From NCBI GenBank assembly GCA_023384575.1, contig JAHDVP010000032.1, forward strand, positions 22,758 through 64,876: 42,119 nucleotides of DNA, given 5' to 3'. The stretch is from Acidobacteriota bacterium (GTDB taxonomy: Bacteria; Acidobacteriota; Vicinamibacteria; Vicinamibacterales; JAFNAJ01). The notes under the pieces were generated by a model. The model was given only the letters and a program-made list of their open reading frames with translations, was not told the DNA's origin and searched no databases. The translations under genes were made by a program, and so were the position numbers. Shown here piece after piece: positions 5,894 to 40,889 of the stretch; position 1 is the first letter of the stretch, and each line of letters opens with the position of its first letter.

Positions 5894-6520
5894 CTACCGC
5901 CCTCCGCGCGGCTGGAAGGTGGCGGCCACGTGCTTGCACACGGGCTCGTGCTGCGAGAAGCGCGCTGTCAGCGACGAGCAGACGACGCGATAGAGGTCGT
6001 CGCCTTCGGCCATGGAGTACTGCCGGACGATCTCGGCCCCCTTCGGCCCGACGCGGCGATACTGCAGCGCCACGATGCGGCGCGACTCGACGTCGAGGAT
6101 GCGCGTTTCGACCTCGGCGAGGCCGGGTTGCTGCTGGCGGAGCCGGTCGGCCTCGAGCTCGGCGAAGAGATCGGTGATGTCCTCCGGCGCGAGCGGCTGG
6201 TTGAGACGCGCGTGCTCGATGAAGATGATGGCCTCGAGCCTGCGCTGCGCGAGCACGGCCACGACCGATCCGCCCCCGGGGCCAAGCTCCCAGTCGCGCC
6301 GCGGCATCTCGAAGCCGAACTGCCCGCCCGGCGCCTGGAACGCCTCGATCTGCAGCCGATCGGCCCGGCCCCACCAGCTCGCCTCTTGAGCCGCAGCGGT
6401 CGTGGCGACGAGGCACACCAGCATCGCGACGGCCGCCACCGTCCTCACGCGGACTGACAGCGATGCCACCCGCTCGCGGCTGGCGCCGCTGCCGCCACCA
6501 ATGCCTGCTCGTCTACGCAT
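5894..6520 (-). CDS. Exported protein of unknown function
   Basis: 208 residues with a signal peptide whose hydrophobic core is at about 28-44 (VAMLVCLVATTAAAQ) after a basic N-terminus. The mature part is a compact alpha/beta-looking domain rich in Glu and Arg with two cysteines (about 183 and 198). I recognise no family. The chosen ATG (6520) overlaps the stop of the PilB/GspE-type ATPase gene by 8 bp (6513-6520), which supports coupling; an upstream in-frame ATG at 6568 lies deeper in that gene. Its position between the ATPase and the kinase suggests a periplasmic or surface part of the same system, but this is only context. A plain hypothetical label is appropriate. Confidence 0.75.
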   Translation of the reverse strand: MRRRAGIGGGSGASRERVASLSVRVRTVAAVAMLVCLVATTAAAQEASWWGRADRLQIEAFQAPGGQFGFEMPRRDWELGPGGGSVVAVLAQRRLEAIIFIEHARLNQPLAPEDITDLFAELEADRLRQQQPGLAEVETRILDVESRRIVALQYRRVGPKGAEIVRQYSMAEGDDLYRVVCSSLTARFSQHEPVCKHVAATFQPRGGR

Positions 6521-8372
6521 GTGTCGGGACTCCCGCCCCCTTGTCCGCGCCCGGCAGCGGGTCGGCATCGGCGACGGTGTGTTCGAGCACCTCGCGCAAC
6601 GCCGACTCGCCCGACGCCACCTTCATCAGCCCCGCCTCGCGGAGCGTCCGCATCCCACTCTGCCTCGCCGATCGCCGGAGCTCGGCCGCACTCGCCCTGG
6701 CGATGATCAGGTCTTCGATCTCCGGCGTCACGCGCAGCACCTCGTAAATGCCCGTGCGCCCACGGAAGCCGGATCCGTTGCACTCGGGGCAGCCCACGGG
6801 CTCGTAGATCGTCGCGCCGCCGAGCAGCCGCTGCCCCGCCTCGCCCGCCGCGTGCCGCAGCACCTGCGCCTCGGGCGCCCCGGGCGCGAGCGGCGTCCGG
6901 CACGCCTTGCACAGCCGCCGAATCAGCCGCTGCGCGAGCACCAGCCGCAGCGCCGACGCCACCATGAACGGCTCGAGGTCCATGTTGAGCAGCCGGAGCA
7001 CGGCGCCCGGCGAGTCGTTCGTGTGCAGCGTCGAGAGGACGAGGTGCCCGGTGAGCGCCGCCTTCAACGCGATGTCGGCCGTCTCCGCATCGCGGATTTC
7101 GCCGACCATCAGAATATCAGGATCCTGCCGGAGGAAGCTGCGAAGCGCAGCGGCAAACGAGATGCCCGAGGCCTCGTCGCACTGCACCTGCGTCACGCCC
7201 CCGATCCGCGATTCGACCGGGTCCTCGGCGGTGAGGATGCACGAGTCCTCGCCATTGAGACGATCGAGGACCGCGTAGAGCGTCGAGCTCTTGCCGCTTC
7301 CGGTCGGTCCGGTCACGAGAATCAGGCCGTTCGGGAGGTCGGAGGCCTTCTCGACCTGCTCGCGCGTGTGCTCGTCCATCCCGAGATCGACCAGCCGCGC
7401 CCGCTCCTTGCTGCGATCGAGCACGCGGAGCACGACTTTCTCGCCCGTCACCGACGGCACGAGCGAGAACCGGAGGTCGATGGCGCGCCCCCACACGATC
7501 TCGTAGCCGATCCGCGCGTCGAGGGGCGTCGGGGCCGGCCCGATGGGCAGGTCGGCCATCGCCTTGAGCCGCGAGACGAGCGGCACGACGGCAGTGAGCG
7601 GTAGCACGTGCTGGACGCGCATCGCGCCGTCGACGCGAATCCGGATTCGGAGGGCCTCGGGTGTCGGCTCGATGTGCAGGTCGCTCGCCCCGGCTTCGAC
7701 GGCCCGGCACAGGATCTGCTGCACGAGGCGAATCACCGACGGCTCGCGGATCATCGCCTCGAGGGCCTTCGGGTCGCGCCGCACGGCGTCGCGGTTGCGG
7801 TTCATCAGCGACACGGCGGGTTTCAGGAACTCCTCGAAGGGCCGCGCGAGGTTGGCGCGGTAGGCCGCCTCGGCGCTCGCCCGGGCCGCCTCGCCCTTGT
7901 GGGCCGGCGGCGACGTGAGGTGCGCGCCGTAGTGCTTCGCGATGGCCCCGACGAGGGCGCCCTCGAGCGAAACGAGCGGCACGATCCGGCAGCCCGACAG
8001 CGACTCGAGGGCCCGCGCGGTCCAACCGTCGGAGGGGTTCAGCATGCAGACGTGGATCGCGTTCAGCTCGGCCTGCGCCGGGAACACGAGCAGGTCGCCG
8101 ACGACCGACGGCGGGATCAGGTCGTTCATCCGCTCGATGAAGTCGGGATAGACCGTCATCAGCGAGGGGTCGACGGCCCGCACGCCGACGAGCTCCTCGA
8201 GCAGCGGCGAGACGAGGTCGGCTTCGACGACGTGAAGGTCGCACAGCGCCGCGGCGAGCGTGCCGCCGCGCGCGCGCTGGAACTCGCGCGCGCGCTCGAG
8301 CACGCCCTCGCCCGCGACCTGATAGTAGGCGACGAGTTCCGCGAGCCGATCGTCGAGCTCGGCGTTGGTCAT
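6513..8372 (-). CDS. PilB/GspE-type secretion ATPase
   Basis: 619 residues. The N-terminal about 150 residues resemble the MshEN/GspE N-domain that docks to membrane partners. The ATPase core has Walker A GPTGSGKS (355-362, Lys 361), the Asp box EDPVE (383-387), Walker B DPDILMVGEIRD (417-428) and the His box region GHLVLSTLHTND (442-453). A zinc-binding tetracysteine module follows (CKAC at 488-491 and CPEC at 528-531), typical of GspE/PilB and absent from TadA. It is thus a second secretion ATPase in addition to the TadA in the same gene run. No GspF-like platform other than TadB/TadC is present here. The ATG at 8372 overlaps the stop of the FHA/TPR gene (ATGA). It may drive pilus extension or secretion together with the FHA proteins; its true partner is unknown. 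Confidence 0.95.
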   Translation of the reverse strand: MTNAELDDRLAELVAYYQVAGEGVLERAREFQRARGGTLAAALCDLHVVEADLVSPLLEELVGVRAVDPSLMTVYPDFIERMNDLIPPSVVGDLLVFPAQAELNAIHVCMLNPSDGWTARALESLSGCRIVPLVSLEGALVGAIAKHYGAHLTSPPAHKGEAARASAEAAYRANLARPFEEFLKPAVSLMNRNRDAVRRDPKALEAMIREPSVIRLVQQILCRAVEAGASDLHIEPTPEALRIRIRVDGAMRVQHVLPLTAVVPLVSRLKAMADLPIGPAPTPLDARIGYEIVWGRAIDLRFSLVPSVTGEKVVLRVLDRSKERARLVDLGMDEHTREQVEKASDLPNGLILVTGPTGSGKSSTLYAVLDRLNGEDSCILTAEDPVESRIGGVTQVQCDEASGISFAAALRSFLRQDPDILMVGEIRDAETADIALKAALTGHLVLSTLHTNDSPGAVLRLLNMDLEPFMVASALRLVLAQRLIRRLCKACRTPLAPGAPEAQVLRHAAGEAGQRLLGGATIYEPVGCPECNGSGFRGRTGIYEVLRVTPEIEDLIIARASAAELRRSARQSGMRTLREAGLMKVASGESALREVLEHTVADADPLPGADKGAGVPTHA

Positions 8373-9781
8373 TCCCGGCCTGCCCTGAGCGCCGCGAGGC
8401 GATCGGCGGCGACCTTCCGCGAGGGGTCGCCGGGCGGCAGCAGGTCGACGACCTGCTCGTACGCTTCGATCGCCTCACGGGTCCGCCCGACCGCATCGTA
8501 CTGGCGCGCGCGTCGCAGGGCGTCCTCGGCGAGCGCCTTCATGTGCTCCTGGGCTTTCGTCCGGGCCTCGGCCGCGCCTTTGATCACTTCGTCGATTTGA
8601 GCGGCCGTCTGGATGGCCCGCGTGTAGCCAGCGATCGCGGCCTTCCACTCTCCTCGCTCCTGCGCGGCGGCCGCCTGCGTGTAGGCCGTCATCGCCGCCT
8701 CGCGCACCGCGTCACGCGACTTCGCGATGAACTCGGCGGTCTCGCGGTAACCAGGCTCGTCGCGCATGATGCCCTCGAACCCGGCTATCGCCAGCGTGAA
8801 CTCGCCCGCGTTGAACGCGGCCATGGCCTCGTTGTACCGCCGCTGCAGTTCGGCGTTCCGCCGCTGGACCGCGGGGTCGACCGTGCGGCGCGGGGCCGGC
8901 GTCGGCGTCGCCGCCGGCGTGGGCGTGACCTCGGCCACCGGGGCTGGCGTCGGGACCGGCCCTGCCCTCAACGCTTCCTCCGCACGCGCCTTCAGGGCCA
9001 GCGCCTCCGCGTGGTTGCGGTCGATGACGAGGAGCCGGTCGAGGTGGTCGCTGATGGCCCGCTCGTACTCGCCCTTCTCGACGAGCGCACGGCCCTCGGC
9101 CAGGTAGAACGCAATCATCTCCTCGTTCGTGCGGGGCGCCGCCGGCGTCGTCACGGGCGGCGCAGGCGTCGTCGTTGCCGCCTGCGGCTCGGTCCCGCCG
9201 GGCGCGGCGGGCTCGTCCGGGCCGAAGAGCACCGCCGCGAGCAGCACCAGGAAGACGAGACCGAAGGCCGCGAGCAACACCGCGGGGCGCGCGATCATCG
9301 AAATCGGGTTGATCCCCGCGCGACGCTTCGGGTCGGGCGGCGGCGCGGTCTTCACCGCGGCGGACGGCGGCCGGGCGGCCGTCGGCCGCTCGATGCTGAG
9401 CCGCTGGGTCTCGGTGGCCGACGGCGCGAGACCACCCGGCACCGCCGTATCGGGCAGATCGCCGGGACGCGGGATCGACGCCGTCCCTTCGAGCGCGGGG
9501 TACTCGAGCGTGTACGGCCCGATGCTCACTTGCATGCCCGCCTCGAGCACCGCCCGCTGCACGCGCTGTCCCCCGAGCCACGTCCCGTTCTGACTGTTCA
9601 GGTCGAGCAGCACGTACTGGCCGTTCTCGAACCGCAGCTCCGCGTGAAACCGCGAGACGGCCTTCGTCGGATCTTCGAGGTGGATCTCGTTCTCGGCGCC
9701 GCGGCCAATCCTGAGATCGCGCTCCGCGAGGTCCATCTCGCGCTCGAGCCGCCCCTCCTTGTAAATCAACAGTCTTGCCAC
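8369..9781 (-). CDS. FHA-domain, single-TM, TPR-like protein
   Basis: 470 residues. The N-terminal FHA domain (about 1-95) keeps the phosphothreonine-binding set: Gly-Arg at 26-27, SRFH (Ser 43, His 46) and NGT (Asn 65). A Pro-rich linker precedes one transmembrane helix at about 167-187, followed by a Pro/Ala/Thr-rich linker and TPR-like helical repeats to the C-terminus. I chose GTG at 9781 because AGGAG sits 7 bases upstream; an in-frame GTG 21 bases earlier has no such site. The FHA domain should face the cytoplasm, where it could read phosphothreonine made by the kinase in the same gene run. The gene is coupled to the ATPase gene that follows it. Confidence 0.9.
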   Translation of the reverse strand: MARLLIYKEGRLEREMDLAERDLRIGRGAENEIHLEDPTKAVSRFHAELRFENGQYVLLDLNSQNGTWLGGQRVQRAVLEAGMQVSIGPYTLEYPALEGTASIPRPGDLPDTAVPGGLAPSATETQRLSIERPTAARPPSAAVKTAPPPDPKRRAGINPISMIARPAVLLAAFGLVFLVLLAAVLFGPDEPAAPGGTEPQAATTTPAPPVTTPAAPRTNEEMIAFYLAEGRALVEKGEYERAISDHLDRLLVIDRNHAEALALKARAEEALRAGPVPTPAPVAEVTPTPAATPTPAPRRTVDPAVQRRNAELQRRYNEAMAAFNAGEFTLAIAGFEGIMRDEPGYRETAEFIAKSRDAVREAAMTAYTQAAAAQERGEWKAAIAGYTRAIQTAAQIDEVIKGAAEARTKAQEHMKALAEDALRRARQYDAVGRTREAIEAYEQVVDLLPPGDPSRKVAADRLAALRAGRE

Positions 9782-9804
9782 TCGTCTACTCCTCTGCCAC
9801 ACGA

Positions 9805-9888
9805 CGGCTGCAGGCTACTGGCTACAGGCTGCAGCCGCCTTCGCCGCTCATCGCTCAATGCGCAGTGCTCAACGCTCAATGCTCCTCA
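9805..9888. repeat. Period-7 degenerate repeat array
   Basis: Units in register: CGGCTGC, AGGCTAC, TGGCTAC, AGGCTGC, AGCCGCC, TTCGCCG, CTCATCG, CTCAATG, CGCAGTG, CTCAACG, CTCAATG, CTCCTCA. The array spans the gap between two FHA genes. Its last unit supplies the stop codon of the upstream FHA gene (complement of 9886-9888). Confidence 0.85.
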
Positions 9889-10803
9889 GGGCCTCGGCAT
9901 CCGCTCGCGCGCGCGCGCCACCGACGCGGCAGCCGTCGCATACCGCGGGTCGGTGGGCTCGACGAGGCTCTGCACACCCTCCCAGTCGAGGATCGCGTCG
10001 TTGAACCGCAGTTGACCAAACGCCACCTCGGCCTCCGCCAGGCGCCGCTCCACTTCCTCTTCGAGCGCCGTCCGCGCTTCCGACAGCCGGCTCGCGGCCG
10101 CCTGATTGCCGGGCTCGCGCGCCAGCACGGCCGAGAGCAGATGCACGGCTTCGCGCAGCCGGCCGACGCGAAGCTGGAGGCTGCCCTCGTCAAACAGCGC
10201 GTCGGTCTCGCCGACGCCGGCCACCTTCGCGCGCGCCAGCACCGGGCCCACGATGGCGGCATCGGGCGTCGCGATGGGCGTCGGAGGCAGCAGCGTGCGT
10301 TCTCCGGCGTCCGCGCGCCGCAGCGCGCCGCCGGCCGGCTCCTCCTCGGCTGGCATCATCAACAACATGAGGACCAGCATGACCACCATCGTGGCGAGCG
10401 CCGTGATACCGAGACGGATGACCTTCGACGACTGCGCGGCCTCGCCCTTGCCGGCCCGCCCGCGGCGGCCGGCGCCACGGTCGACCACCTCGAGGGAGAA
10501 GTCGCCAATCTGCACGCGATCGCCAACGTGCACGACCGACACCGCAATCGGCTGACCGTTCACCAGGGTGCCGTTCGCGCTCTCGAGGTCTTCGACCACG
10601 CACTCGCCGCCGGCGTACCGGATGACGGCGTGGTGCTTCGACACGACCGGCGAAGCGAGGACGATGTCGCTCGCCGCGTCGCGGCCGACCGTGATCGGCG
10701 TGCCGGGCGAGAGCGCCACCTCGGACGACCCGCCCGGCCCCGAGACCACGATGAAGGGCTTCTCGAGGTAGTTGGCCGACGCCAGCGGCTCGCGGCGGGC
10801 CAC
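9886..10803 (-). CDS. FHA-domain membrane protein with helical C-terminus
   Basis: 305 residues starting at GTG 10803, 3 bp after the previous stop. The FHA domain (about 15-108) has VGRD (Arg 41), SKHH (Ser 55, His 58) and ANGT (Asn 77), so the phosphothreonine pocket looks intact. A basic stretch precedes one very Met/Leu-rich transmembrane helix (131-150). The rest is TPR-like or coiled helix (LREAVHLLSAVLAREPGNQAA; long Glu-rich helix near 240-260). It is the second of three consecutive FHA proteins and, by context, a likely adaptor that couples Ser/Thr phosphorylation to the Tad machinery. The stop codon lies inside a heptamer array. Confidence 0.9.
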   Translation of the reverse strand: MARREPLASANYLEKPFIVVSGPGGSSEVALSPGTPITVGRDAASDIVLASPVVSKHHAVIRYAGGECVVEDLESANGTLVNGQPIAVSVVHVGDRVQIGDFSLEVVDRGAGRRGRAGKGEAAQSSKVIRLGITALATMVVMLVLMLLMMPAEEEPAGGALRRADAGERTLLPPTPIATPDAAIVGPVLARAKVAGVGETDALFDEGSLQLRVGRLREAVHLLSAVLAREPGNQAAASRLSEARTALEEEVERRLAEAEVAFGQLRFNDAILDWEGVQSLVEPTDPRYATAAASVARARERMPRP

Positions 10804-10806
10804 CGG

Positions 10807-12555
10807 TCAGCGCTCCTCGCGCACGAAGCGCGCGGTAATGGGGGCGCTCGGACCCGAGCGCGATACGTGCACGGCCAGAGCGAAGGTCTGGCCGGCCGGC
10901 TGCACGATGAGCGACCCGACGCCTCCCTGCGTCACGTCGGTCAGCAGCTTGAGGACCGCGTCGCCGATCGTGCGGTCGGGAATGGCGTCGAGCAGGTGCT
11001 GGCCCTTCAGCGCCGCCGGGGCGATGCCGAGCAGTTCGAGCGTTCCCTCGGTGGCCTCGGTGATGCGGAACTTCTCGTTGGCGACGATGGTGCAGTCGTT
11101 CGACATTGCCTCGACGACGGGTTCCTGACGCGTGGAGGGCACCACCCGGGCCGCCGCCCGGGCCGCGCCCGGGGCTGGCCGTGGCGCGCCGGCCGACGCC
11201 GCAGCCGAGGCCGAGCCGCTGCGCACCCGCGCGAGGAGGTAGTTCACGGCCCGCACGACCTCCTGCATGGGCTTGACGCCCAACGTGTCGCCGACCTCGT
11301 CGATTTGTCCTGCGGCGGCGAGCTCGATGTCCTCGCCGAAGTACGTCACCGCCCTGAGCGTGCGGCGCTGGAGGAGTCGCGCCGCGACGATCCACGCGAC
11401 GAGCGCGAGGACGATGGCCGGGCCGATGGCCACGGCCTGGCTCACGGTCGTCCCCGCCGACGGCCGGAAGCTCACCCAGGCGACCGCTGCGCGGTTTTCG
11501 CCCCGGGCGCGCACCGGGGCCACCGCCTCGAGAAGGTCGCCGCGCGCGACCACCCTGACGCCGTACACCTCGGAGGTCGCGCCGACGTCCGGGATGGTCG
11601 GCACGCGTTCGGTCGACCGCGAGCCAGGCGCGAGCACGCTGCCGTCGGGGGCCAGCACCAGTGCCACGACGACGCCGGGCTGCGCGCCCACCTCGTCGGC
11701 CGATGCCGACACGTCGCCCGCGCCGGCCATGGCCGTCGCCGCGTCGGCGGCCAGCCAGCGGGCCAATGCCTGGGCGCGCGCTGTCGCGGTGGCGTCGACC
11801 ACCGACTGCTGGTAGATGCGGAAGGGCACGACCGTGGCGACGAAGACGACCAGCGTCATGACGAGCAGCGTCATCCACAGCGTCGTCGTCCACGACAGGC
11901 GGGGAGACTTGCGAGGCGTGGCCACGAGTGGCGCCCGGCCGAGCGGCAGTTCGCCAGCGTCGGCTGCCGGCGGCGAGGGCGCCGCCGGCTTCGGGGCGGG
12001 CCGGGCCTTGGGTGCCGGGGGACGCGGCGTGTCGCGCGGCGCGGCCGGCGCCGCGCTGGCGGCTCTCGGCGTGGCGGCGGGCTCGCGGCGGAACGTATCG
12101 AGGTCGAGGGGCGGCGTTGGCATCGCCTTGACGACGACCGTGGCGTCGGACGGCGGGTCGTTCGTGGGCGGGCGCGGAGGCGGGGCCGGCGCCGCCGCCG
12201 CGGGGGTCCGCCGGATCACGACGGTCTGATCCTCGGTTGCCGGCCCCGACTCGGCGCGGGCCGCGGTGTCCCGCTCCGCGATGTAGGTGATGGTCACCCC
12301 CGCAACCTGCACGATGTCGCCCGCCTGCAGGGTGGCCTCGGTCACGGTGACGCCGTTGACCTGAATGCCGTGACGGCTCTCGAGGTCGCGCACCACGGTC
12401 CGGCCGCCGCTCTCGATGAACTCGGCGTGCTGCCGCGACAGCGCGGGGTCGGCGCTCGTGATCTCGCAGCGCGGGTCGCGGCCCACCCGCATGGTCCCGA
12501 CGAGCAGCAGCTCGCGCTCCCCGCCCGAATCCTTGACACGCAGCTTCCTGGTCAC
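10807..12555 (-). CDS. Transmembrane sensor: FHA - TM - outside domain - TM - PAS
   Basis: 582 residues. Layout: FHA domain about 1-95 (VGRD Arg 26; SRQH Ser 40/His 43), a long Pro/Ala-rich linker (about 115-218), TM1 224-247, a 125-residue outside sensor domain, TM2 374-395, a HAMP-like helical stretch to about 445 and a PAS-like domain at about 485-580 (DCTIVANEKFRITEATEGTLELLG). In the FHA domain the usual NG[ST] is RHGI (His 62), so phosphothreonine binding may be weakened. No kinase or cyclase output domain follows the PAS part. The GTG at 12555 overlaps the stop of the DUF192 gene; an earlier in-frame start lies inside that gene. It probably senses an external signal and passes it to the pilus apparatus through protein contacts (inference). 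Confidence 0.9.
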   Translation of the reverse strand: MTRKLRVKDSGGERELLLVGTMRVGRDPRCEITSADPALSRQHAEFIESGGRTVVRDLESRHGIQVNGVTVTEATLQAGDIVQVAGVTITYIAERDTAARAESGPATEDQTVVIRRTPAAAAPAPPPRPPTNDPPSDATVVVKAMPTPPLDLDTFRREPAATPRAASAAPAAPRDTPRPPAPKARPAPKPAAPSPPAADAGELPLGRAPLVATPRKSPRLSWTTTLWMTLLVMTLVVFVATVVPFRIYQQSVVDATATARAQALARWLAADAATAMAGAGDVSASADEVGAQPGVVVALVLAPDGSVLAPGSRSTERVPTIPDVGATSEVYGVRVVARGDLLEAVAPVRARGENRAAVAWVSFRPSAGTTVSQAVAIGPAIVLALVAWIVAARLLQRRTLRAVTYFGEDIELAAAGQIDEVGDTLGVKPMQEVVRAVNYLLARVRSGSASAAASAGAPRPAPGAARAAARVVPSTRQEPVVEAMSNDCTIVANEKFRITEATEGTLELLGIAPAALKGQHLLDAIPDRTIGDAVLKLLTDVTQGGVGSLIVQPAGQTFALAVHVSRSGPSAPITARFVREER

Positions 12556-12920
12556 ACCCGTTCCATCCGCAGGCGATCTCCCGGCACGACGTCGGCCGCC
12601 GCCAGCGTGCCCGCCGGGAGTTCCACCGTCAAGACGGCGCGCCATCCCCCCCACGCCAGCCCGAAGGGGCGGAGGGCGTTGACGAGCCGCACGATCACGC
12701 CGTCACGGTCTGCGAACACGACGTCGATGGCAAACCGCATGAAGCACGTGTGCACCATCCCGGCGGGGCGGAGCACGAGGCCGTCTCCCGGCCGCAGCTC
12801 GCGATGGGCGAGCAGCCCGACCATTCTCGTCCAGGGCGTATCGGCCACGCCAGCCACGGCGAGCAGCGCGCCCGAGCGCTCGACGACGACCCGCGCCGAC
12901 GGGCGCGCGTCAGTTCCCAT
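12552..12920 (-). CDS. DUF192 family protein
   Basis: 122 residues. It matches the DUF192 fold by its pattern TPWTRMVGLLAHRELRPGDGLVL, HTCFMRFAIDVVF (the CF/CI-M-x-F-x-ID core) and a C-terminal VLELPAG-like strand (here VLTVELPAGT). The family's function is not established. It lacks a signal peptide, whereas many family members are exported. Its start overlaps the end of tadC (ATG 12918-12920, stop of tadC 12910-12912) and its stop overlaps the FHA sensor start, so it is an embedded part of the Tad gene run. Confidence 0.9.
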   Translation of the reverse strand: MGTDARPSARVVVERSGALLAVAGVADTPWTRMVGLLAHRELRPGDGLVLRPAGMVHTCFMRFAIDVVFADRDGVIVRLVNALRPFGLAWGGWRAVLTVELPAGTLAAADVVPGDRLRMERV

Positions 12921-13797
12921 AGATGAACTGCAGGATCACGGGCCCCATGATCACGATGAGCACCGACGGGAAGATGAAGAGCACCAGCGGGAACAGGATC
13001 TTCTGGGTGGCCCGGCCACCCTCCTTCTCCGCCCGCTGGAAGCGCTCGATCCGCATGCGCTCGGCCTGCTGCTGCAGCACGGGGCCGATGGACGCGCCGA
13101 GCAGGTCGGCCTGCACCAGCACCGACACGAACGACCCGATCTCCGGCCGCTCGATGCGCGCGGCGAACGCCTTGAGCGCGTCGGCGCGCGACTTGCCGAG
13201 GCGGATGTCGTTCAGGATGGTCGCCAGCTCGTCGCGCAGCGCCCCGATGCCGCCCCGTTCGACGACCCGCTGCATGGCCGTGAGGAACTCGAGGCCGGCC
13301 TCGACCGAGAGCGAGATCACGTCCACGGCGTTCGGCAGGGCCCGGACGATCTCGGCCTCGCGCGCCTTGCGCATGTCGGCAATCAGCTTGTCGGGCAGGA
13401 AGAAGCTCGCGACGGCCACGAGCACCATCATGGCGGGGTTGCCGAGGAACTCGACGATCTGGGCCGCGACGAGCGGGATGACGACGGCGAAGAGCGCCTT
13501 CATGGCCAGTACGTGGTTCGGCGTGAGGTGGTCGCCGACGCCCGCCCGATCGAGCTCGACCGGCATCCGCTCGCGAAAACTCGGCCACGGGACCGCCTGG
13601 AAGAGCGGCGCGAGGCCCGACAACACGGGATAGAGCAGCTTCAGCCAGAGCGAGGGCAGCGGGCGGGCATCGGCCGGCCGGCCCTGCAGGCGCTCGACCG
13701 ACACCGTCCGCGCCTGTTCCGGGAGCGCTCCCCACACGAAGAGCGCGACCGCGGCGAGCGCCGACGCCAGCGCGAGGGGATAGAGAACGAACATCAT
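12910..13797 (-). CDS. tadC: TadC-like inner-membrane platform protein
   Basis: 295 residues, GspF-superfamily. An N-terminal TM (about 1-23) is followed by a cytoplasmic region, a TM pair at about 110-155, the conserved helical domain (AVDVISLSVEAGLEFLTAMQRVV; ELATILNDIRLGKSRADALKAF; SFVSVLVQADLLGASIGPVLQQQA) and a C-terminal TM (about 270-290). With TadB it forms the membrane platform on which the TadA ATPase acts. The start ATG at 13797 has GGGAGGA about 10 bases upstream; a second ATG directly follows. It is separated from tadB by a small pilin-like gene and a hairpin element. Confidence 0.93.
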   Translation of the reverse strand: MMFVLYPLALASALAAVALFVWGALPEQARTVSVERLQGRPADARPLPSLWLKLLYPVLSGLAPLFQAVPWPSFRERMPVELDRAGVGDHLTPNHVLAMKALFAVVIPLVAAQIVEFLGNPAMMVLVAVASFFLPDKLIADMRKAREAEIVRALPNAVDVISLSVEAGLEFLTAMQRVVERGGIGALRDELATILNDIRLGKSRADALKAFAARIERPEIGSFVSVLVQADLLGASIGPVLQQQAERMRIERFQRAEKEGGRATQKILFPLVLFIFPSVLIVIMGPVILQFIYGN

Positions 13798-13814
13798 GGG
13801 TCCATGTCCTCCCG

Positions 13815-13988
13815 CTACCAGGGCGGATCGAGCAGCTGCCCCACCGCGAACTCCGCGATCCGCTGCAGGTTGGCCCTGAGCGGCACCTGCATGATCGAGA
13901 GCAGGATGATCGCCATCGACGTGATGAGCCCGCTGATCATCAGGAACTCGGTCACCGTCTGCCCGCGCTCGCCCGTACCAGCGTTCAC
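13815..13988 (-). CDS. Small Flp-type pilin-like peptide
   Basis: 57 residues from GTG 13988, the same length as the pilin-like protein at 21608-21781. The prepilin-like junction is ERG-QTVTEFLMISGL: Gly, then Glu at +5 and an aromatic at +6, followed by a hydrophobic helix. The frame stays open upstream to an ATG at 14168 that overlaps the tadB stop and has a GAAGGTGG ribosome-binding-like sequence. That start would translate the inverted-repeat element at 13987-14150 into a basic 60-residue leader, so I prefer the short form, but the start is not settled. It lies between tadB and tadC. A pseudopilin or minor pilin role is inferred. Confidence 0.7.
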   Translation of the reverse strand: MNAGTGERGQTVTEFLMISGLITSMAIILLSIMQVPLRANLQRIAEFAVGQLLDPPW

Positions 13989-14150
13989 TGGTGTTGATAG
14001 CGCAGCCAGCCGCGAGCGGGTGGCGCCGGACGGGGCGCCCCGCCCGCCGCGCAGGCGCCACCCACGTGACAGGTGGACTTGGCGCCGAGGACGGGTGGGG
14101 CTGTCCGGCGACAGGACCCGCCGCGCTGTATCAACACCAGTGGCCTCCGC
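13987..14150. repeat. 164-bp inverted-repeat element between tadB and the pilin gene
   Basis: The left end CACTGGTGTTGATAGCGC (in the + orientation) and the right end GCGCTGTATCAACACCAGTG are near-perfect inverted copies of about 18-20 bp. The interior is GC-rich with further short inverted repeats (GGCGCC-type). The GTGTTGAT core of the ends resembles the ends of the elements at 36054 and 38574, but the interiors differ. It overlaps the possible GTG start of the small pilin gene. Confidence 0.6.
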
Positions 14151-14164
14151 CGCGTCTGGGCCCC

Positions 14165-15010
14165 TCATACGTCCACCTTCACCAGCTTGAACATCATCCA
14201 CAGCCCCATCGCGTCGAGCACGAACACCAGCAGCAGCATCATGATGCCGATGGGCGTGTTGAAGAACGGCCTGATGTACTCGGGCGAGATCATCGCGAAG
14301 ATCATCAGCATGCCGACCGGCATCAGGCAGACGAGCACGCCCTGTGACATGCCCTGCGAGGTCATCGCCTTGATCTTGCCCTGCACCTTCTTCCGCTCGA
14401 CGACCGTCTTGGCGATGATCTCGAACGTTTCGCTCAGGTCGCCGCCCGTCTCGCGCAAGGTCAGGATCGCGTCGACCGACAGCTTGATGTCCTCGAGCGG
14501 CACCCGCTCGGCGAACCGCCGCAGCGCGTCGTCGGTGAGCCGGCCGAGATGGATCTCCTTGACGACGCGCTCGAGCTCGTCGTTCATGGGTGCCTTGATC
14601 TCGCGCACCGCCAGCTCGAGCGACTGCTGGAAGCTCAGGCCCGACTTGAGCGCGTTCGACATGAGCAGCAGCGTGTCGACGAGCTGGTCGTCGATGCGCT
14701 CGAGCCGGCGCATCCGCTTCCACAGGATCCAGCCCCGCGGCCCGAAGTACCCGAGCGCCCCGAAGACGATGGCGCTCACGATGCCGGCGAAGAGGAAGCC
14801 GAGCACGACGCCCGAGATCACGGCGATCGAGATGAAGCGCTTGGCCCGCTCCACGGTGAGCGTCACGAACATGGCGCTCAGTTCGTCGGCCATCCAGACC
14901 GCGTAGGTGTGGATGCGCTCGTTCCACCACGCCCAGAGCGCCGGGCCGGCGGTTCTCACGAACAGCACCACGGCGGCGAGGATCCCGAGAAGGGCGAGAT
15001 ACATCAACAT
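14165..15010 (-). CDS. tadB: TadB-like inner-membrane platform protein
   Basis: 281 residues, GspF-superfamily. N-terminal TM (about 3-22), TM pair around 70-105 (ISIAVISGVVLGFLFAGI), helical domain with VDTLLLMSNALKSGLSFQQS and LRETGGDLSETFEIIA, then two C-terminal TMs (SQGVLVCLMPVGMLMIFAMI; IMMLLLVFVLDAMGLWMM). This is the usual TadB layout. It starts 2 bp after the tadZ-tadA stop. Together with TadC it should form the platform for pilus assembly. Confidence 0.93.
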   Translation of the reverse strand: MLMYLALLGILAAVVLFVRTAGPALWAWWNERIHTYAVWMADELSAMFVTLTVERAKRFISIAVISGVVLGFLFAGIVSAIVFGALGYFGPRGWILWKRMRRLERIDDQLVDTLLLMSNALKSGLSFQQSLELAVREIKAPMNDELERVVKEIHLGRLTDDALRRFAERVPLEDIKLSVDAILTLRETGGDLSETFEIIAKTVVERKKVQGKIKAMTSQGMSQGVLVCLMPVGMLMIFAMISPEYIRPFFNTPIGIMMLLLVFVLDAMGLWMMFKLVKVDV

Positions 15011-15012
15011 GG

Positions 15013-17094
15013 CTACGCCGTCTGATGGAGGAAGATCTCGCGCGGCACCTTGATGCCCCGGCGCGAGAGGGTGTCGACGAACGCCGGCACGTAGCCGGTC
15101 GGCACGAACTGGCCGTAGACCTTGCCGTCGGGCGCGAGCCCCGTCTGCTTGAACAGGAACACGTCGGCCGTCGTGAAGACACTGCCTTCCTGCCCGGTGA
15201 CCTCGGTGATGTGCGTGATGCGCCGCGAGCCGTCCTGCAGGCGCGACTGCTGCACGATGAGGTTCACCGCCGCCGCGATCTGGTCGCGGATCGCGCGCGA
15301 GGGCAGCTCGAGTCCCGCCATGAGCGCCATGGTCTCGAGGCGGCTCAGCGCGTCGCGGGGCGTGTTGGCGTGCACGGTCGTCAGCGACCCGTCGTGCCCC
15401 GTGTTCATCGCCTGCAGCATGTCGAGCGCCTCGCCGCCGCGGCACTCGCCCACCACCACCCGGTCGGGTCGCATGCGCAGCGCGTTGCGCACGAGGTCGC
15501 GAATGGTGATCGCTCCCTCGCCCTCGATGTTCGGCGGCCGCGCCTCGAGCGTCACGACGTGATCCTGGGGCAGCCGCAGCTCGGCGGCGTCCTCGATGGT
15601 GACGATGCGCTCGTCGGTCGGGATGAACGACCCGAGCAGGTTGAGCAGCGTCGTCTTGCCCGACCCGGTGCCGCCAGAGATCACGATGTTGAGCCGCGCC
15701 TGGACCGCCGCCCCGAGAAACGTCGCCATCTGCTCGGTCATCGACCCGAACTTCACGAGGTCGTCGACGCCGAGCATCTTCTTCGAGAACTTCCGGATCG
15801 TCAGGGCCGGCCCACGCAGCGCGAGCGGCGGGATGATGGCGTTCACACGCGAGCCGTCGCGCAGGCGGGCATCGACCATCGGCACCTTCTCGTCGATGCG
15901 GCGCCCGATGGGCGCGACGATGCGCTCGATGACGCCGCGCAGCTGCTCGGTGGTGACAAACTGCACGTCGGTCTTCTGCAGCCGCCCGCTGCGCTCGACG
16001 TAGATCTGGTCGTGCCGGTTCACCATGATCTCGGTCACGGTCGGGTCCGACAGCAGGTCCTCGAGCGGTCCGAGGCCCAACGCATCGTCGAGCACGTCCT
16101 TGACGATGCGCCGCCGCACCTCGCGCGAGGTGACCTGACCGCCCTCCTCCTCGAGCAGCGACAGGACCTTCGCCTCGGCGCGGACCCGGACCTCCTGCAG
16201 CTTCACCGGGTCGCGCAGGTACGACAGGTCGGCCTTGCGCAGCTCGATTTCCTCGACGAGCCGGCGGTGGATCTTGACCTTGAGCGCGCGGACGTCCTCG
16301 TCGCTCGCCTCGGTGGCCGCGGGCGCCGCCTCGGCGGCGCGGCCGGCCCGCGACCGCATGGCCCGCTGTGCCACGTCGCGGGCGAGCCGGTCGAGGCTGC
16401 GCGCGATGGCGTGACGCGGCTGCTGAAAGACGATCGGCTGCCGGCGGTCGGCCGCCTCGGCGACGGCCACGCCGTCCTCGGGCAACTGCGCCGCCAGCGG
16501 ACCGCCGAGCAGCTTCTCGAGCGAGTCGACGGGAACGACGCCTCGCGGCGGGATGCGGTTGAGGCAGAAGATCTGCGCGTCGGTCGGCACCTGGAGCGTG
16601 CGCAGGTAGTCGCGGCAGAAGCGTGCCCGCGCGATGCCCACCGGCGTGGCCTCGAAGACGACGACGACCTGGTCCATCCGTTCGAGCAGGGGCTGGGTGA
16701 GCACACCCACGCCGGGCGCCATGTCGACGACGACGACGTCGAACGACACCATCGCGAGGTCGAGCAGCCTGGTGACGAGTGCCGGGGTGATGAGCCGCCC
16801 CTGCAGCACCTCGCTCACGAGCGGCATGAACGCGAGCCCGCTCGGCGTCGTCACCACGTAGCTCGCGAAGAGCTCCGGGGTGACGCGGTCGAGAATCGGC
16901 ACCATGTCGGCCAGCGACTTCACGCGATCGAGGCCCACGAGGGTCGCCGTCTCGGCCGGCAGCGGGTGGCTCGCGTCGACGAGCAGCACCGCACCGGCAT
17001 CCTGCTGCTGCAGGCTGACCGCGAGGTTGGTGGCGACGAGCGTCTTGCCGACGCCCCCGCCTCCCGAGTGGACCGCGACGAGTTTGGCGCGCAT
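15013..17094 (-). CDS. tadA: TadZ-TadA fusion: ParA/MinD-like domain plus Tad secretion ATPase
   Basis: 693 residues, against about 400-480 for a usual TadA. Residues 1-245 form a ParA/MinD/CpaE-like domain with P-loop GGGGVGKT (11-18) and a Walker-B-like strand [13 protein letters not shown] (118-130). The signature Lys of the deviant Walker A is replaced by Gly 12. Residues 265-690 are TadA/VirB11-like: Walker A GGTGSGKT (474-481), Walker [11 protein letters not shown] (544-553), His box [10 protein letters not shown] (572-581), and the [17 protein letters not shown] region. There is no stop or frameshift between the parts; a short Ala-rich linker (about 250-265) joins them. TadZ/CpaE normally localises the apparatus as a separate protein. 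It lies upstream of tadB and downstream of the secretin-like gene, with a heptamer array in the gap. No clear ribosome-binding site is seen. Confidence 0.95.
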
Positions 17095-17112
17095 GGTTGG
17101 GACTGACGTGTC

Positions 17113-17168
17113 TTAGCTAGGAGCTGTGAGCTGTGAGCTGTGAGCTCTGAGCCTGTAGCCTCTCACTG
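17113..17168. repeat. Period-7 degenerate repeat array
   Basis: Units in register: TTAGCTA, GGAGCTG, TGAGCTG, TGAGCTG, TGAGCTC, TGAGCCT, GTAGCCT, CTCACTG. It fills the gap between the secretin-like gene and the tadZ-tadA gene. Confidence 0.9.
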
Positions 17169-18392
17169 TTACCATTCCGCCTCCGGGACCGTGAACGTCG
17201 GCCGCACGATGAGCAGCAGCTGCGTCTTCTTGCTGCGGTCGTAGTAGACGACCGACCCGGCGGTGGCGTACTCGGTGCCCGGCAGTCCCCCGATGCCGGG
17301 CAGGCCGGCCGCGGTCGACGCCGCGCCGGTCGCGCGTCCGAGGGCCGATCCGCGCGCGGCGATGTCGGGCATGGCCATCAGTTCGGCGCCGGCCACGCCG
17401 ACCGGCTCACCGCTTGCCGCCCCGATCTCCCAGCGCGCCCGCCGCCACACGTCGGGGTCGTACACCTTCAGGTCGTACGGCATGTTGGTTTCGACGAGCA
17501 GGTTCGTCAGCAGCACGCCGTCCTCGCCCGGTTCGACGGGCCGGAACGTCAGGCGGAAGCCCGTCTCGGGCGCGTCGGGCTGCGCCCGCCGGCCGCGCTT
17601 CTTGTTCGCCTCGGCGGTCTCCTTCGGGAACATCTGCGGCCCGCCGATGAAGAGCGTGCCCTCCTTGTTGGCCGTCACCGAGAGCTTCCCCGCGTAGAGA
17701 CGCCGGCCGCTCGGCTCGACGCCGGTGCCGTAGGACCCGCTCCCGAACTGGATGGCCGCCTCGAGCAACTCGACCTCGTACTCCACGACGGTCGGCGCCG
17801 GCGGCGCGTCGGGATCGGCGGGCGTCCCGGCGCCGCCCTCGCGCATCTCCTTCCACTGCGCCTCGCCGCCCGTGCCCGGCGTGGTGGCCGGGGCGCGCGA
17901 CGAAACGACGCGCACCACGTTCTGCACGCTGGCGGCATCGGCGATGGCCTGCACGGCGTCGAAGTCGGACTGCCGCGCCACCGTGCCCGAGATGACGAGA
18001 TTGCCGCCCAGCTTCCTGACGGTGACGTTCGGGAAGTCGGCGAGCATCTCGCGCAGGTCCTCCTCGAGCTGCACCGACTCGCGCGTCACGACGGCGATCT
18101 CGATCTCGCTGCGCTTGACGTTCTGCTGGTCCCAGATGGTGAGCGTGGTCACACCCTCGCCGACGCCGAAGAGGATCAGCTCCCGGCGCCCCGGCACCAC
18201 CTTGAAGTCGGCGACGGCCGGGTCGCCGATCGCGATGTTGCCCACCGGGTAGCCGGGCGTGTAGGTGCGTTGTTCCCTGACGAAGAGGCGCTCTTCGGAC
18301 GCGACGGGGCCCTCCTGCCCCGCCACGGGCAGCGTGGCGGCGAACAGGCCTGCGAGCACGACGGTCACGGTGGTCACCACGGTCTTCGTCAT
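17169..18392 (-). CDS. cpaC: CpaC/RcpA-like short secretin
   Basis: 407 residues with a signal peptide (TVTVVLAGLFAATLPVAGQ, ending near 26). The N-terminal part (about 30-110) matches the secretin/pilus N domain (GNIAIGDPAVADFKVVPGRRE; GVGEGVTTLTIWD). A BON-like segment follows (VRKLGGNLVISGTVARQSDFDAV). The C-terminal part is secretin-like but short and divergent: VEYEVELLEA, TGFRLTFRPVEPGEDGVLLTNL and the closing GLPGIGGLPG...KKTQLLLIVRPTF, which recalls the secretin signature and last strand. It should form the outer-membrane channel of the Tad machine. ATG 18392 is preceded by AGGAGG; an adjacent in-frame ATG at 18395 is too close to it. Confidence 0.85.
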   Translation of the reverse strand: MTKTVVTTVTVVLAGLFAATLPVAGQEGPVASEERLFVREQRTYTPGYPVGNIAIGDPAVADFKVVPGRRELILFGVGEGVTTLTIWDQQNVKRSEIEIAVVTRESVQLEEDLREMLADFPNVTVRKLGGNLVISGTVARQSDFDAVQAIADAASVQNVVRVVSSRAPATTPGTGGEAQWKEMREGGAGTPADPDAPPAPTVVEYEVELLEAAIQFGSGSYGTGVEPSGRRLYAGKLSVTANKEGTLFIGGPQMFPKETAEANKKRGRRAQPDAPETGFRLTFRPVEPGEDGVLLTNLLVETNMPYDLKVYDPDVWRRARWEIGAASGEPVGVAGAELMAMPDIAARGSALGRATGAASTAAGLPGIGGLPGTEYATAGSVVYYDRSKKTQLLLIVRPTFTVPEAEW

Positions 18393-18411
18393 CATTCCTC
18401 CTGGCCCTCCT

Positions 18412-18439
18412 GGCCTGCAGCCCGTAGCCTGCAGCCTGC
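18412..18439. repeat. Period-7 repeat array
   Basis: Four units: GGCCTGC, AGCCCGT, AGCCTGC, AGCCTGC. It lies between the cpaB stop and the secretin-like start. Confidence 0.85.
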
Positions 18440-19297
18440 CTAGAACCCCCCGCCCCTGAACTCGCGCCACGCGGGCGCGGCCCGCGGCTTGAGCGGGATC
18501 TTCACGTCGAGCAGCCCGAACGGGTCGAGGATGCCCAGTTCTTCGATTTGCCCCGTGTCGAGGTTCGACCGGAGCGACAACGTGAGCGTGCCGATCTGCT
18601 GCGCGAGCACGAGGCGCTGCACGTCCTGGGGCCCGACGAGCAGCGTCACGTTCTGAATGTCCGCGGTCTCGGGCAACCCGAACTGCGCCTCTTCGCCCTG
18701 TTGGGCGAGCGACATCTCGGGCGAGCGCGGCATCGGCCGCTCGCGCCGGTGTTCGCGGTTGACCGCGACGACGAGCACGTTTTGCATCAACGTGCGCGTC
18801 TCGGTCCGCTCGTCGGCATACGTCATCGTCCCGCCCTGCATCGAGACGGGACGGCCGAACTCGAACGTGCCGAGGATGTCGACGAAGTTGCCCGGCCGGA
18901 CGAGGCCGCCGACGCCGCTGACGTCGGTGGCGGCAATCGTGACCGCGCGCCGGCCCCGCGGCACCTCGTAGGCGAGGGCCGGGGCGCCCGCGCCCTCGAG
19001 GTACGCCCCGAGCAGCTGCGCGCCGCGCGGCACGCCAATCGCCACGACGCGCCCGACGAGCTGGTTCGGGTCGGTGATGGCCGTGGGCTGCACGTAGGTC
19101 GCCGGCACCTGCACGCGCTGGATCAACCGTTCGTCGAGCATCGTGAACGGCAGGATGTCGGTCGTCGCGACGTAGACGTCGCGCATCTCCGACATCTGCA
19201 GCAACTCGCTCTCGCGGCCGCTGATGTAGATCATCATCATGACCACGGCCAGCACGCCGAGCACGAGCGAGGCCACCACCGCCGACTTGTTCCGCAT
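18440..19297 (-). CDS. cpaB: CpaB/RcpC-like pilus assembly protein
   Basis: 285 residues. An N-terminal TM anchor (about 7-25), then a SAF-like domain (about 38-105: VYVATTDILPFTMLDERLIQ; LVGRVVAIGVPRGAQLL) and the RcpC/CpaB domain (RRAVTIAATDVSGVGGLVRPGNFVDIL; VTLLVGPQDVQRLVLAQQIGTLTLSLR). The family is a periplasmic partner of the Tad secretin. ATG 19297 has GGAGGA at good spacing. It is followed by the secretin-like gene, the usual order in tad/cpa clusters. Confidence 0.93.
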   Translation of the reverse strand: MRNKSAVVASLVLGVLAVVMMMIYISGRESELLQMSEMRDVYVATTDILPFTMLDERLIQRVQVPATYVQPTAITDPNQLVGRVVAIGVPRGAQLLGAYLEGAGAPALAYEVPRGRRAVTIAATDVSGVGGLVRPGNFVDILGTFEFGRPVSMQGGTMTYADERTETRTLMQNVLVVAVNREHRRERPMPRSPEMSLAQQGEEAQFGLPETADIQNVTLLVGPQDVQRLVLAQQIGTLTLSLRSNLDTGQIEELGILDPFGLLDVKIPLKPRAAPAWREFRGGGF

Positions 19298-38738: not shown

Positions 38739-40889
38739 TCAGCCGCTGCCGGAACGCGCCGTCTGGGCTGACGCCCCGGCGCTGCGGACGAGGACGGCGG
38801 ATTCCACCTCCGCCCTGCCCTCGGGCGGCGAGAGCAGCCGCACGGGCGGCCCGGCCTTGGCCCGGGCCTCGATGGCCAGCTCGCGCACGCGCGTGATGTC
38901 GGCGTCGCTGAACACGCCGTTGACGCCTGAAATCGCGGCCAGCCGCATGCCGTGCCGCAGGCCCAGCTTGTAGATCTCCTTCACCTTCTGCCACTCGAGG
39001 TTGCGGCCGACGGTGTACGGCTCGAAGCGGCCTTCGAGGGCGAGGACGATGGTCTCGGCCAGGCAGGCGTAGACGACGTTCTTCGGCAGGCCGATGTTGC
39101 GGATGTGCACGTCGCCGGGTAGCTGAATCTCGCCCGACTCGATCACGAGCACGTCGGGACGTTTGGCGACCTCTTCGGGTGGAAGATCGAGCGGCCGGGC
39201 GACGTCGGTGATGACGCACCCCGGCTTCACCTTCATGATGTCGAGGATCTTCTTTCCGGCGCCCGACGTCGCCGTCACGACCATGTCCATCTCCGGCAGG
39301 AACTCGTCGGTTCGGCTCGAGAGGTGCAGAATGGCGTCGGGAGTGTCCTTGAGGATGCTCTCCTTCAGTGTGAAGAGCTTGGCCATTTCGATCGACACGA
39401 GGTAGACCTCCTCGACCGACTGGGCCAGGAGCCGGGCACACGCCGACCCGATGGCGCCCGTGGCGCCGACCACCATGCACTTGCCGCGCACCTTCCCCCG
39501 GTGGTCGAGCTTCACGAGGCCGAGCCGCCGGACGGCATCAGCGGCGGCCCACAGCGCCGCCGAGGCGCTGTAGCTGTTGCCCGTCGTCACCGGGATGTCG
39601 GCGCGCTTCGCCACGGTGACGCCCGCGTCGCCCACGACCTTGGTGAACGCGCCGAGGCCCATGATCTGCGCACCGAGCTTCTCGGCCATCCGGGCGGCGG
39701 CGAGCAGCCGGCGATACGTGAACTCGGGGCTGTGGGCCAGCAGTTGTTTCGGCGTGCCTCCAACGGTGATGAGCCAGCCTTCGGTTTCGACGCCGAGCGG
39801 CGACTCGATGCCGGTGACCCTCGAGTACATGAACGGCGGCGAGTGGGCCATCACGCGCTCGAACAGGTTCATGCCCCATCGGCCGGCGGCCCGCGAGAGC
39901 ACCTCAACGGGCTTCACGGCCTTGAAGTACTCCTGCGACAGCGGGTGGATCACGAACGCGAAGCGGTTGATGCGGCGGTAGCGTCCGGTGGGATACAGCA
40001 GGCGCGGCGCGAAGTCGAGCTGGCCGAGCACGTGGAGGAAATCGTCGTGCTCGACCTCGGCGGCCGGCTTCTCGAGCGACGCGAGCATCATCGCCTCGAG
40101 CACGTTCAAGCCGACGACGCGATCGAGGAGCTGGGGCGTCCGATCGATGACGACGTACACGCCTTTCTGGCCGAGCAGCGCCAGCGACTCGTCGGTGATG
40201 GACGACGTCAGGACGACCTTGCCACGGAGCTCGTGGGCCGGATAGCGCTCGATCTCCTGATAGGACCCGGTGACGAAGTGCGCCCACTCCATCGCCCGAC
40301 GGAGGACGCGCCGCGTCCACGGCCGGTCGGGGGGACCGTCTTCGGCGAGCGCGGGCGACCTGGCGTTGCGCCGGAGGCGCGGCCGCACGGCCGCGTACCG
40401 CTCGAGCGCCGCGAGCGACCGCAGGACGACCGGCAGGCCGTCGAGCACCACGGGATCCGCAAACCGCAGGTTCTTCGTGTACTCCGAGAGGATGGCCGCC
40501 GTGCGGTAGTTGGTGATGCCTGACAGGAAGAGCATTCGGGCGTTCGTGAAGTACTGCCCCTCTTCCCGCTGGACGTAGCGTACGGCCCACTCGTCGAACA
40601 GCAGTCGCAGTGTCGCGCCGGTCGTGACCGGCACGCCGTTGGCCGTCCGCTCGAGGCGGGCGGTGAGCGGGTCGTCGAGGCGGCGCCGGCCAACGACCAG
40701 GTGGTCGCGCACCATGCCGAGACCGATGGCGTCGGCGTCGTGCTGGTGCTGGCGCAGCAGCGCCTCGGCGCGCGCGACGTCCCAGTCGGCACCGACGCGT
40801 TTCAGGTGGAAGGTCTGCCCCAGAAACGTGGTGGTGTGCTCGTAGTCGGCAGTCGACGGCCCGAGACTGACACTGACGATCCGCTTCAT
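38739..40889 (-). CDS. Acyl-ACP-reductase-like protein with N-terminal extension
   Basis: 716 residues from ATG 40889. Residues about 305-650 match the aldehyde-forming acyl-ACP reductase (AAR) of cyanobacteria: FAFVIHPLS at the start, GAQIMGLGAFTKVVGD, PVTTGNSYSASAALWAA, the NADPH loop VVGATGAIGSACARLL (473-488), and YACLAETIVLALEG with Cys 609 at the place of the acyl-carrying cysteine of AAR. TVGRNLEWQKVKEIYKLGLRHGM closes the domain. The first 300 residues are an extension I do not recognise (cyanobacterial AAR is about 340 residues). The last 15 residues come from a repeat. The reaction expected is acyl-ACP or acyl-CoA to aldehyde; no aldehyde deformylating oxygenase lies here. Start choice follows a TATGAT box 13 bases upstream; ATGs at 40904/40907 are alternatives. 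Confidence 0.85.
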   Translation of the reverse strand: MKRIVSVSLGPSTADYEHTTTFLGQTFHLKRVGADWDVARAEALLRQHQHDADAIGLGMVRDHLVVGRRRLDDPLTARLERTANGVPVTTGATLRLLFDEWAVRYVQREEGQYFTNARMLFLSGITNYRTAAILSEYTKNLRFADPVVLDGLPVVLRSLAALERYAAVRPRLRRNARSPALAEDGPPDRPWTRRVLRRAMEWAHFVTGSYQEIERYPAHELRGKVVLTSSITDESLALLGQKGVYVVIDRTPQLLDRVVGLNVLEAMMLASLEKPAAEVEHDDFLHVLGQLDFAPRLLYPTGRYRRINRFAFVIHPLSQEYFKAVKPVEVLSRAAGRWGMNLFERVMAHSPPFMYSRVTGIESPLGVETEGWLITVGGTPKQLLAHSPEFTYRRLLAAARMAEKLGAQIMGLGAFTKVVGDAGVTVAKRADIPVTTGNSYSASAALWAAADAVRRLGLVKLDHRGKVRGKCMVVGATGAIGSACARLLAQSVEEVYLVSIEMAKLFTLKESILKDTPDAILHLSSRTDEFLPEMDMVVTATSGAGKKILDIMKVKPGCVITDVARPLDLPPEEVAKRPDVLVIESGEIQLPGDVHIRNIGLPKNVVYACLAETIVLALEGRFEPYTVGRNLEWQKVKEIYKLGLRHGMRLAAISGVNGVFSDADITRVRELAIEARAKAGPPVRLLSPPEGRAEVESAVLVRSAGASAQTARSGSG
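38765..38787. repeat. Degenerate CCCCGGCGCTGCGG palindrome in the AAR-like 3' end
   Basis: GGGCTGACGCCCCGGCGCTG is a decayed copy of the palindrome family with the same GCTGCGG tail as at 29166. It encodes the SAGASAQ part of the AAR-like C-terminus. Confidence 0.65.

Follow-up and report, generated by a model that had tools for sequence, protein, structure and literature searches.

A gene in the window, the whole 42,119-nucleotide stretch of Acidobacteriota DNA that was analyzed, is likely to code for a two-module acyl-thioester reductase in which the N-terminal module is a non-catalytic partner and from which fatty aldehyde passes, by way of an alcohol, into wax in most carriers. The protein probably consists of two related modules in one chain, with the working parts kept only in the second. 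Its predicted activity, the conversion of activated fatty acids into fatty aldehydes, is very probable. The evidence is computational and comprises homology, intact motifs, the acyl-ACP reductase (AAR) fold of the C-terminal module, the fusion of two partners, gene linkage, and genome co-occurrence. The features of the gene are as follows.

38739..40889, minus strand: the whole gene, coding for a 716-amino-acid two-module acyl-thioester reductase homolog (translation, 55 relatives, and their alignment).
39975..40889, minus strand: the N-terminal half, residues 1-305, a probable AAR-fold module without the catalytic motifs (model, structure match, and standalone homologs).
40104..40106, minus strand: Asn262, in the N-terminal half, the predicted counterpart of the catalytic Cys (profile alignment of one half with the other, translation).
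38862..39974, minus strand: the C-terminal half, residues 306-676, an AAR/PigE-type thioester reductase module (NCBIfam, PDB sequence search, and structure match).
39447..39467, minus strand: the dinucleotide-binding loop GATGAIG, residues 475-481 (sequence; its counterpart is AAR 162-GATGDIG-168, PMC7089970).
39063..39065, minus strand: Cys609, the predicted acyl-carrying cysteine (aligned to PigE Cys296, invariant).
38739..38861, minus strand: the C-terminal tail, residues 677-716 plus the stop codon, mostly predicted to be disordered and unconserved in the alignment.

Translation of the open reading frame gives 716 residues from an ATG start at 40889 to a stop at 38739 on the minus strand, in agreement with the span given in the initial annotation, and the two motifs quoted there for the N-terminal half are present at residues 88-101 and 115-133. 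Most of the 55 other loci conserve the frame over its full length (48-77% identity), and it is therefore no chance frame. A model of the whole protein, built from a 29-sequence alignment, has a mean pLDDT of 83 and falls below 50 at residues 683-716. The match to AAR covers residues 309-667, with the AAR part complete from about residue 307, and thus the first 305 residues are extra.

The C-terminal module carries the AAR signatures that were originally claimed for it. Its best NCBIfam match is the PigE thioester reductase (E 2e-56, 191.7 bits), the AAR model also matches (E 5e-20, 72.2 bits), and the next family reaches 23 bits. By profile score, the protein is nearer to the PigE reductase domain than to cyanobacterial AAR. 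The 72.2 bits lie far below the curated AAR cutoff of 449.7 bits (TIGR04058), which makes the module a homolog outside the equivalog family, and the 191.7 bits for the PigE-type reductase-aminotransferase model (NF053554, cutoff 850 bits) cover only profile positions 1-359 of 837. Sequence matches in the PDB are PigE (4ppm) and AAR (6jzq, 6jzu, and 6jzz). Model residues 309-667 superimpose on residues 1-344 of 6jzq with Z 29.4 over 326 residues (rmsd 3.8), and the three-domain fold of AAR is present.

The NADPH loop reported in the initial annotation is intact. The GATGAIG sequence follows the GX(1-3)GX(1-2)G pattern of the AAR dinucleotide loop, with two of its glycines invariant and the third found in 34 of 37 homologs. 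Residue 609 is the Cys of a YACLAE sequence and is a Cys in all 37 homologs. It aligns with Cys296 of PigE in the PDB sequence alignment, a residue that has been equated with Cys294 of AAR (PMC8341465), which carries the acyl group (PMC7089970). These alignments, and a model that matches AAR throughout, put Cys609 at the acyl site, as had been proposed from the sequence.

The mechanism of AAR, in which the acyl group is transferred to the Cys and a hydride then releases the aldehyde, has been demonstrated (PMC7089970), and the same mechanism is supported for PigE and TamH (PMC8341465, PMC9594044). PigE reduces a thioester, and TamH starts from fatty acyl thioesters and proceeds to amines (PMC8341465, PMC9594044). 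Thus, the chemistry is known for close homologs. In the two-module protein, an acyl group from acyl-ACP or acyl-CoA would be passed to Cys609, and a hydride from NAD(P)H at the GATGAIG loop would release a fatty aldehyde. We infer this aldehyde formation from the homologs, and both the chain length and the choice of ACP versus CoA are to be read in the same conditional sense.

The N-terminal half is more difficult to place. Neither Pfam nor NCBIfam has a match for it in the window protein, and only chance-level matches occur among 29 members, so its assignment to a known domain of either collection was rejected. A PDB sequence search with this half yields E 0.79 at best. When modeled alone (pLDDT 87.8) and realigned by structure, its top match is AAR, with Z 12.9 over 243 residues (rmsd 4.2, model residues 3-305 on AAR 1-345). 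All nine top rows of this realignment are AAR-type reductases matched end to end, including the carmabin TAD, and malic enzyme comes next at 10.4. Broad profiles of the two halves also align collinearly over their whole length (p 2e-4 and 5e-4), through the segments IGLG..VPVTTG and NVLEA/CLAET. The GxxGxxG loop and the catalytic Cys are absent from the N-module, and Asn occupies position 262 in 44 of 48 N-modules. We therefore lean toward a model in which the N-terminal half is a shortened, degenerate copy of the AAR fold that has lost the dinucleotide loop and carries Asn262 in place of the Cys.

It is possible, but rather doubtful, that the N-module is instead a regulator of the reductase, namely a ligand sensor with two lobes of the Rossmann or periplasmic-binding-like kind and no relation to AAR. 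Foldseek alone ranks sugar-binding proteins first for this half, with AAR and TAD also at E <0.001, which is what a sensor would lead one to expect. Identity to AAR is about 14%, and the Z of 12.9 is close to the values of about 10 that are reached by unrelated folds. The profile score between the halves is marginal, at 36.8 versus 35.2 for the best of 150 block-shuffled decoys, the narrow profiles of the two halves give an unconvincing p of 0.03, and standalone N-modules on their own have no profile match to the C-module (p 0.06). A sensor is, however, at odds with nine top structures that are all of the AAR type, with the collinear broad profiles, and with the fact that the partner of the N-module is itself AAR-like. 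The initial annotation had set the N-terminal half outside known AAR, and this holds for the architecture, but the AAR fold is probable and the module also exists as a separate protein.

These separate proteins, of about 300 residues, were detected by a profile search with the N-terminal half in 33 of 296 genomes of the phylum to which the actinobacterial carrier belongs. They come from small Actinomycetota-phylum genomes and match over nearly their full length (E 1e-43 to 2e-62). Among the 17 loci with a readable neighbor, nine have, immediately after the N-module gene, a separate gene whose product shares 34-38% identity with the C-module, which reproduces the module order of the fused protein. 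Thus, two recurring partners are joined in the window protein. The standalone pairs differ from it in that they are two genes and belong to a different clade, and in that some standalone N-module genes adjoin a class III aminotransferase gene instead of a reductase gene. In three loci (L069, L072, and L068), the standalone N-module is followed by a gene for an AAR-like reductase or for a putrescine/ornithine-type class III aminotransferase, a pattern that suggests that a PigE-like reductase-aminotransferase system is here divided between separate genes. Because the N-module and the reductase are found both split and fused, the role of the presumably dead module is testable.

One scan of species genomes identified 55 further loci of the two-module protein, nearly all full length, and the protein is a widespread family. 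Its carriers are Acidobacteriota, Desulfobacterales and other deltaproteobacteria, Beta- and Gammaproteobacteria, among them Burkholderiales, and one actinobacterium, a Nocardioides MAG. Representation is sparse in the phylum of the window (5 full-length proteins among 197 genomes), and a tblastn search of plasmids returned AAR/PigE-type matches to the C-module only, with no full-length relatives. All intact members in the alignment have both halves; L053 and L056 (interrupted frame) were left out of it. One Desulfobacterales genome (G204) has three full-length copies, at L063, L065, and L066.

In a maximum-likelihood tree, the C-terminal halves of the fused proteins form one clade (100/100) versus the split, PigE-type, and AAR sequences, although the long branches of AAR and of one PigE-type row leave the deeper order unsure. 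The kinship with AAR that was first proposed is consistent with this placement, as the protein groups with reductases of the AAR/PigE type, where it forms a separate clade, and its profile scores are far from those of other dehydrogenases. Assignment to a non-AAR dehydrogenase was rejected because the C-module scores far higher with the PigE and AAR models than with SDR or shikimate dehydrogenase models.

Neighbor clustering and Pfam scans reveal an iron-containing alcohol dehydrogenase (Fe-ADH) within 500 bp of the gene in 27 proteobacterial loci. In the Desulfobacteraceae copy scanned (L051), this enzyme is fused to an SCP2 lipid-carrier/lipid-transfer domain. A WS/DGAT gene is located within 6 kb in 11 loci, a count from which matches were discarded that proved to be shadow frames inside the reductase gene, produced by an over-long query ORF. 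Several Burkholderiales have the operon order Fe-ADH, two-module gene, WS/DGAT wax synthase, with 4-bp overlaps or gaps of 10-80 bp where the starts are clear. The spacing between the two-module gene and WS/DGAT is -4 to +18 bp where the start is clear, and all seven Burkholderiales-type WS/DGAT copies examined have the HHxxxDG motif. This arrangement would fit a pathway in which the aldehyde is reduced to an alcohol, in many carriers by the neighboring Fe-ADH, and the alcohol is esterified to wax by WS/DGAT. WS/DGAT enzymes are also able to make triacylglycerol. In the Nocardioides carrier, a single gene with a fatty-acyl-reductase (FAR) domain (PF07993) is located directly upstream.

The association extends to whole genomes. 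Because the carrier loci are related to one another and many are MAGs, these counts are not independent and indicate strong trends only: WS/DGAT is present in 49 of the 50 carrier genomes other than that of the window (the exception is a 2.2-Mb MAG), versus a background of 13-14% (27 of 197 genomes in the phylum of the window; 16 of 120 genomes in the order to which one Burkholderiales carrier belongs). Within the phylum sample, four of five carriers have WS/DGAT versus 27 of 197 genomes overall (hypergeometric p 0.0013), and the phylum carrier G160 gave no WS/DGAT match.

A survey of WS/DGAT bacteria found FarA in 1%, AcrB in 31%, and FcrA in 26% (PMC11948995), so that many wax-ester producers have no assigned source of fatty alcohol. 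Our survey of carriers took in AcrB and homologs of HMGR/FcrA. AcrB scores above its cutoff in 14 of 55 carriers, an HMGR/FcrA homolog is found in 14 of 55, and neither is found in 30 of 55. FcrA, an HMG-CoA-reductase-like fatty acyl-CoA reductase, apparently has the same place in the wax pathway as the two-module protein and was likewise found by its co-occurrence with WS/DGAT (PMC11948995), but it belongs to an unrelated family and makes the alcohol directly. AcrB, FarA, and Acr1 also supply fatty aldehyde or alcohol for WS/DGAT, but these are SDR-type enzymes. The diagnostic domains PF07993 (FarA/AcrB) and PF00368 (FcrA) have no match in the 716-residue protein.

In the window, the gene is solitary. 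It is flanked by genes for a cytochrome c and an M24 peptidase, which are both on the opposite strand, and hem, arginase, and homoserine dehydrogenase genes are farther away. No lipid or wax gene was seen beside it at this locus. A Pfam scan of the 22 window ORFs gave no match to a deformylating oxygenase (ADO), as the initial annotation had stated for the vicinity of the gene. Elsewhere in the genome there are two WS/DGAT genes, of which one has the HHxxxDG motif intact (HHSMIDG), a single weak Fe-ADH relative, and an HMGR homolog whose frame of 529 codons is of sufficient length for FcrA; AcrB is absent from this genome. With the gene standing alone, its wax role in this organism is a prediction, and an FcrA-type enzyme may share the task.

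An alternative for the window's organism is that the aldehyde feeds an alkyl ether, alkenyl, or other lipid and that the link to wax applies to the proteobacterial carriers only. No wax gene was found near the window gene or near the Acidobacteriota copies looked at, and Desulfobacterales loci that have no WS/DGAT nearby instead have a ParA-like ATPase, a metallo-beta-lactamase-fold protein, and an FGGY kinase as neighbors. We nevertheless consider this alternative unlikely given the two WS/DGAT genes of the window genome, the excess of WS/DGAT among carriers of the same phylum, and the lack of an ether-lipid gene beside any copy annotated. Of the fates that had been proposed for the aldehyde, alcohols and wax are thus strongly supported by the neighborhoods in relatives and by WS/DGAT co-occurrence, whereas ether lipids find no support.

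In many sulfate reducers (the Desulfobacterales loci L010, L012, L016, L018, L020, L049, and others), the region downstream of the gene has a conserved trio, namely the ParA-like ATPase, the metallo-beta-lactamase-fold protein, and a protein of about 130-178 amino acids that has no Pfam match. In one Acidobacteriota genome, a 321-amino-acid Cas_csx3-domain protein is encoded close to the two-module gene (L096:6802-7767).

Invariant polar residues of the N-terminal half (R31, D145, K224, and D249) and its presence in every intact member aligned might be taken to mean that the N-module is itself catalytic, for example as an aldehyde reductase, which would make the whole protein a four-electron acyl-to-alcohol reductase. 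This is improbable for a module that has neither the GxxGxxG loop nor the Cys, and a separate alcohol dehydrogenase adjoins the gene in many carriers. As a non-catalytic fixed partner, which is the simplest interpretation, the N-module might serve as a scaffold or for stability, in docking of the acyl carrier, or in channeling of the product. Cyanobacterial AAR in A. baylyi yielded much aldehyde and little wax, which the authors ascribed to inefficient transfer to the enzyme that follows (PMC5806253), and thus aldehyde from an AAR-type enzyme is not automatically channeled to wax. It is tempting to speculate that a built-in partner module is a natural answer to this problem.

Among known systems, the reductase domain of PigE (prodigiosin) and TamH (tambjamine) is the best family match, with the catalytic Cys and the dinucleotide loop kept. 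However, PigE and TamH are fused to a class III aminotransferase and are tied to pigments, whereas the partner in the window protein is probably a degenerate reductase-fold module and the two-module relatives have wax genes as neighbors and form a separate clade. That the aldehyde serves amine or other secondary metabolism, as with PigE and TamH, instead of lipid storage is highly improbable, since the PigE match of the C-module and the class III aminotransferase genes beside some standalone N-modules are outweighed by the lack of an aminotransferase domain in the two-module protein, its separate clade (100/100), and conserved Fe-ADH and WS/DGAT neighbors in a family whose carriers nearly all have WS/DGAT.

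The C-module resembles cyanobacterial AAR (6JZQ) in its fold and in the pairs Cys294/Cys609 and GATGDIG/GATGAIG. AAR is nonetheless a single module of 341 amino acids whose aldehyde goes to ADO, whereas the two-module protein has 716 amino acids and its aldehyde apparently goes to alcohol and wax. The window protein departs from the single module of about 340 amino acids that is typical of AAR by its extra N-terminal module, which is conserved across the two-module family.

The chemistry and the kind of reductase present in the C-module are known already, whereas no account was found of the two-module architecture, of how widely it is spread, or of its connection with wax operons. The search for an earlier report of a two-module AAR that acts in wax synthesis was made in open-access literature, with subscription journals mostly outside it, and gave none. 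The protein is a concrete candidate to fill part of the gap in fatty alcohol supply in Desulfobacterales, Burkholderiales, Gammaproteobacteria, and Acidobacteriota. It is also an example of a reductase whose partner is probably a dead version of its own fold, an arrangement that occurs in split (two-gene) as well as in fused form. There is perhaps an even chance that these proteins constitute an undescribed, widespread class of bacterial fatty-acyl reductase (catalytic AAR module plus a pseudo-reductase module) that supplies wax-ester aldehyde where known reductases are lacking, and that the pseudo-module, which would go back to an ancient duplication or to a pair of partners, governs carrier docking or hand-over to the alcohol dehydrogenase. 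AAR-type enzymes are used for engineered production of fatty alcohols and alkanes. An AAR relative that is naturally wired to an alcohol dehydrogenase and a wax synthase is therefore of practical interest.

Elsewhere in the window, positions 6513-19297 on the minus strand hold a Tad/Flp-type pilus cluster with two T2SSE ATPases, one of which has a ParA-like domain. The cluster also codes for FHA proteins, RcpC/CpaB, and a pilus N-terminal-region protein.
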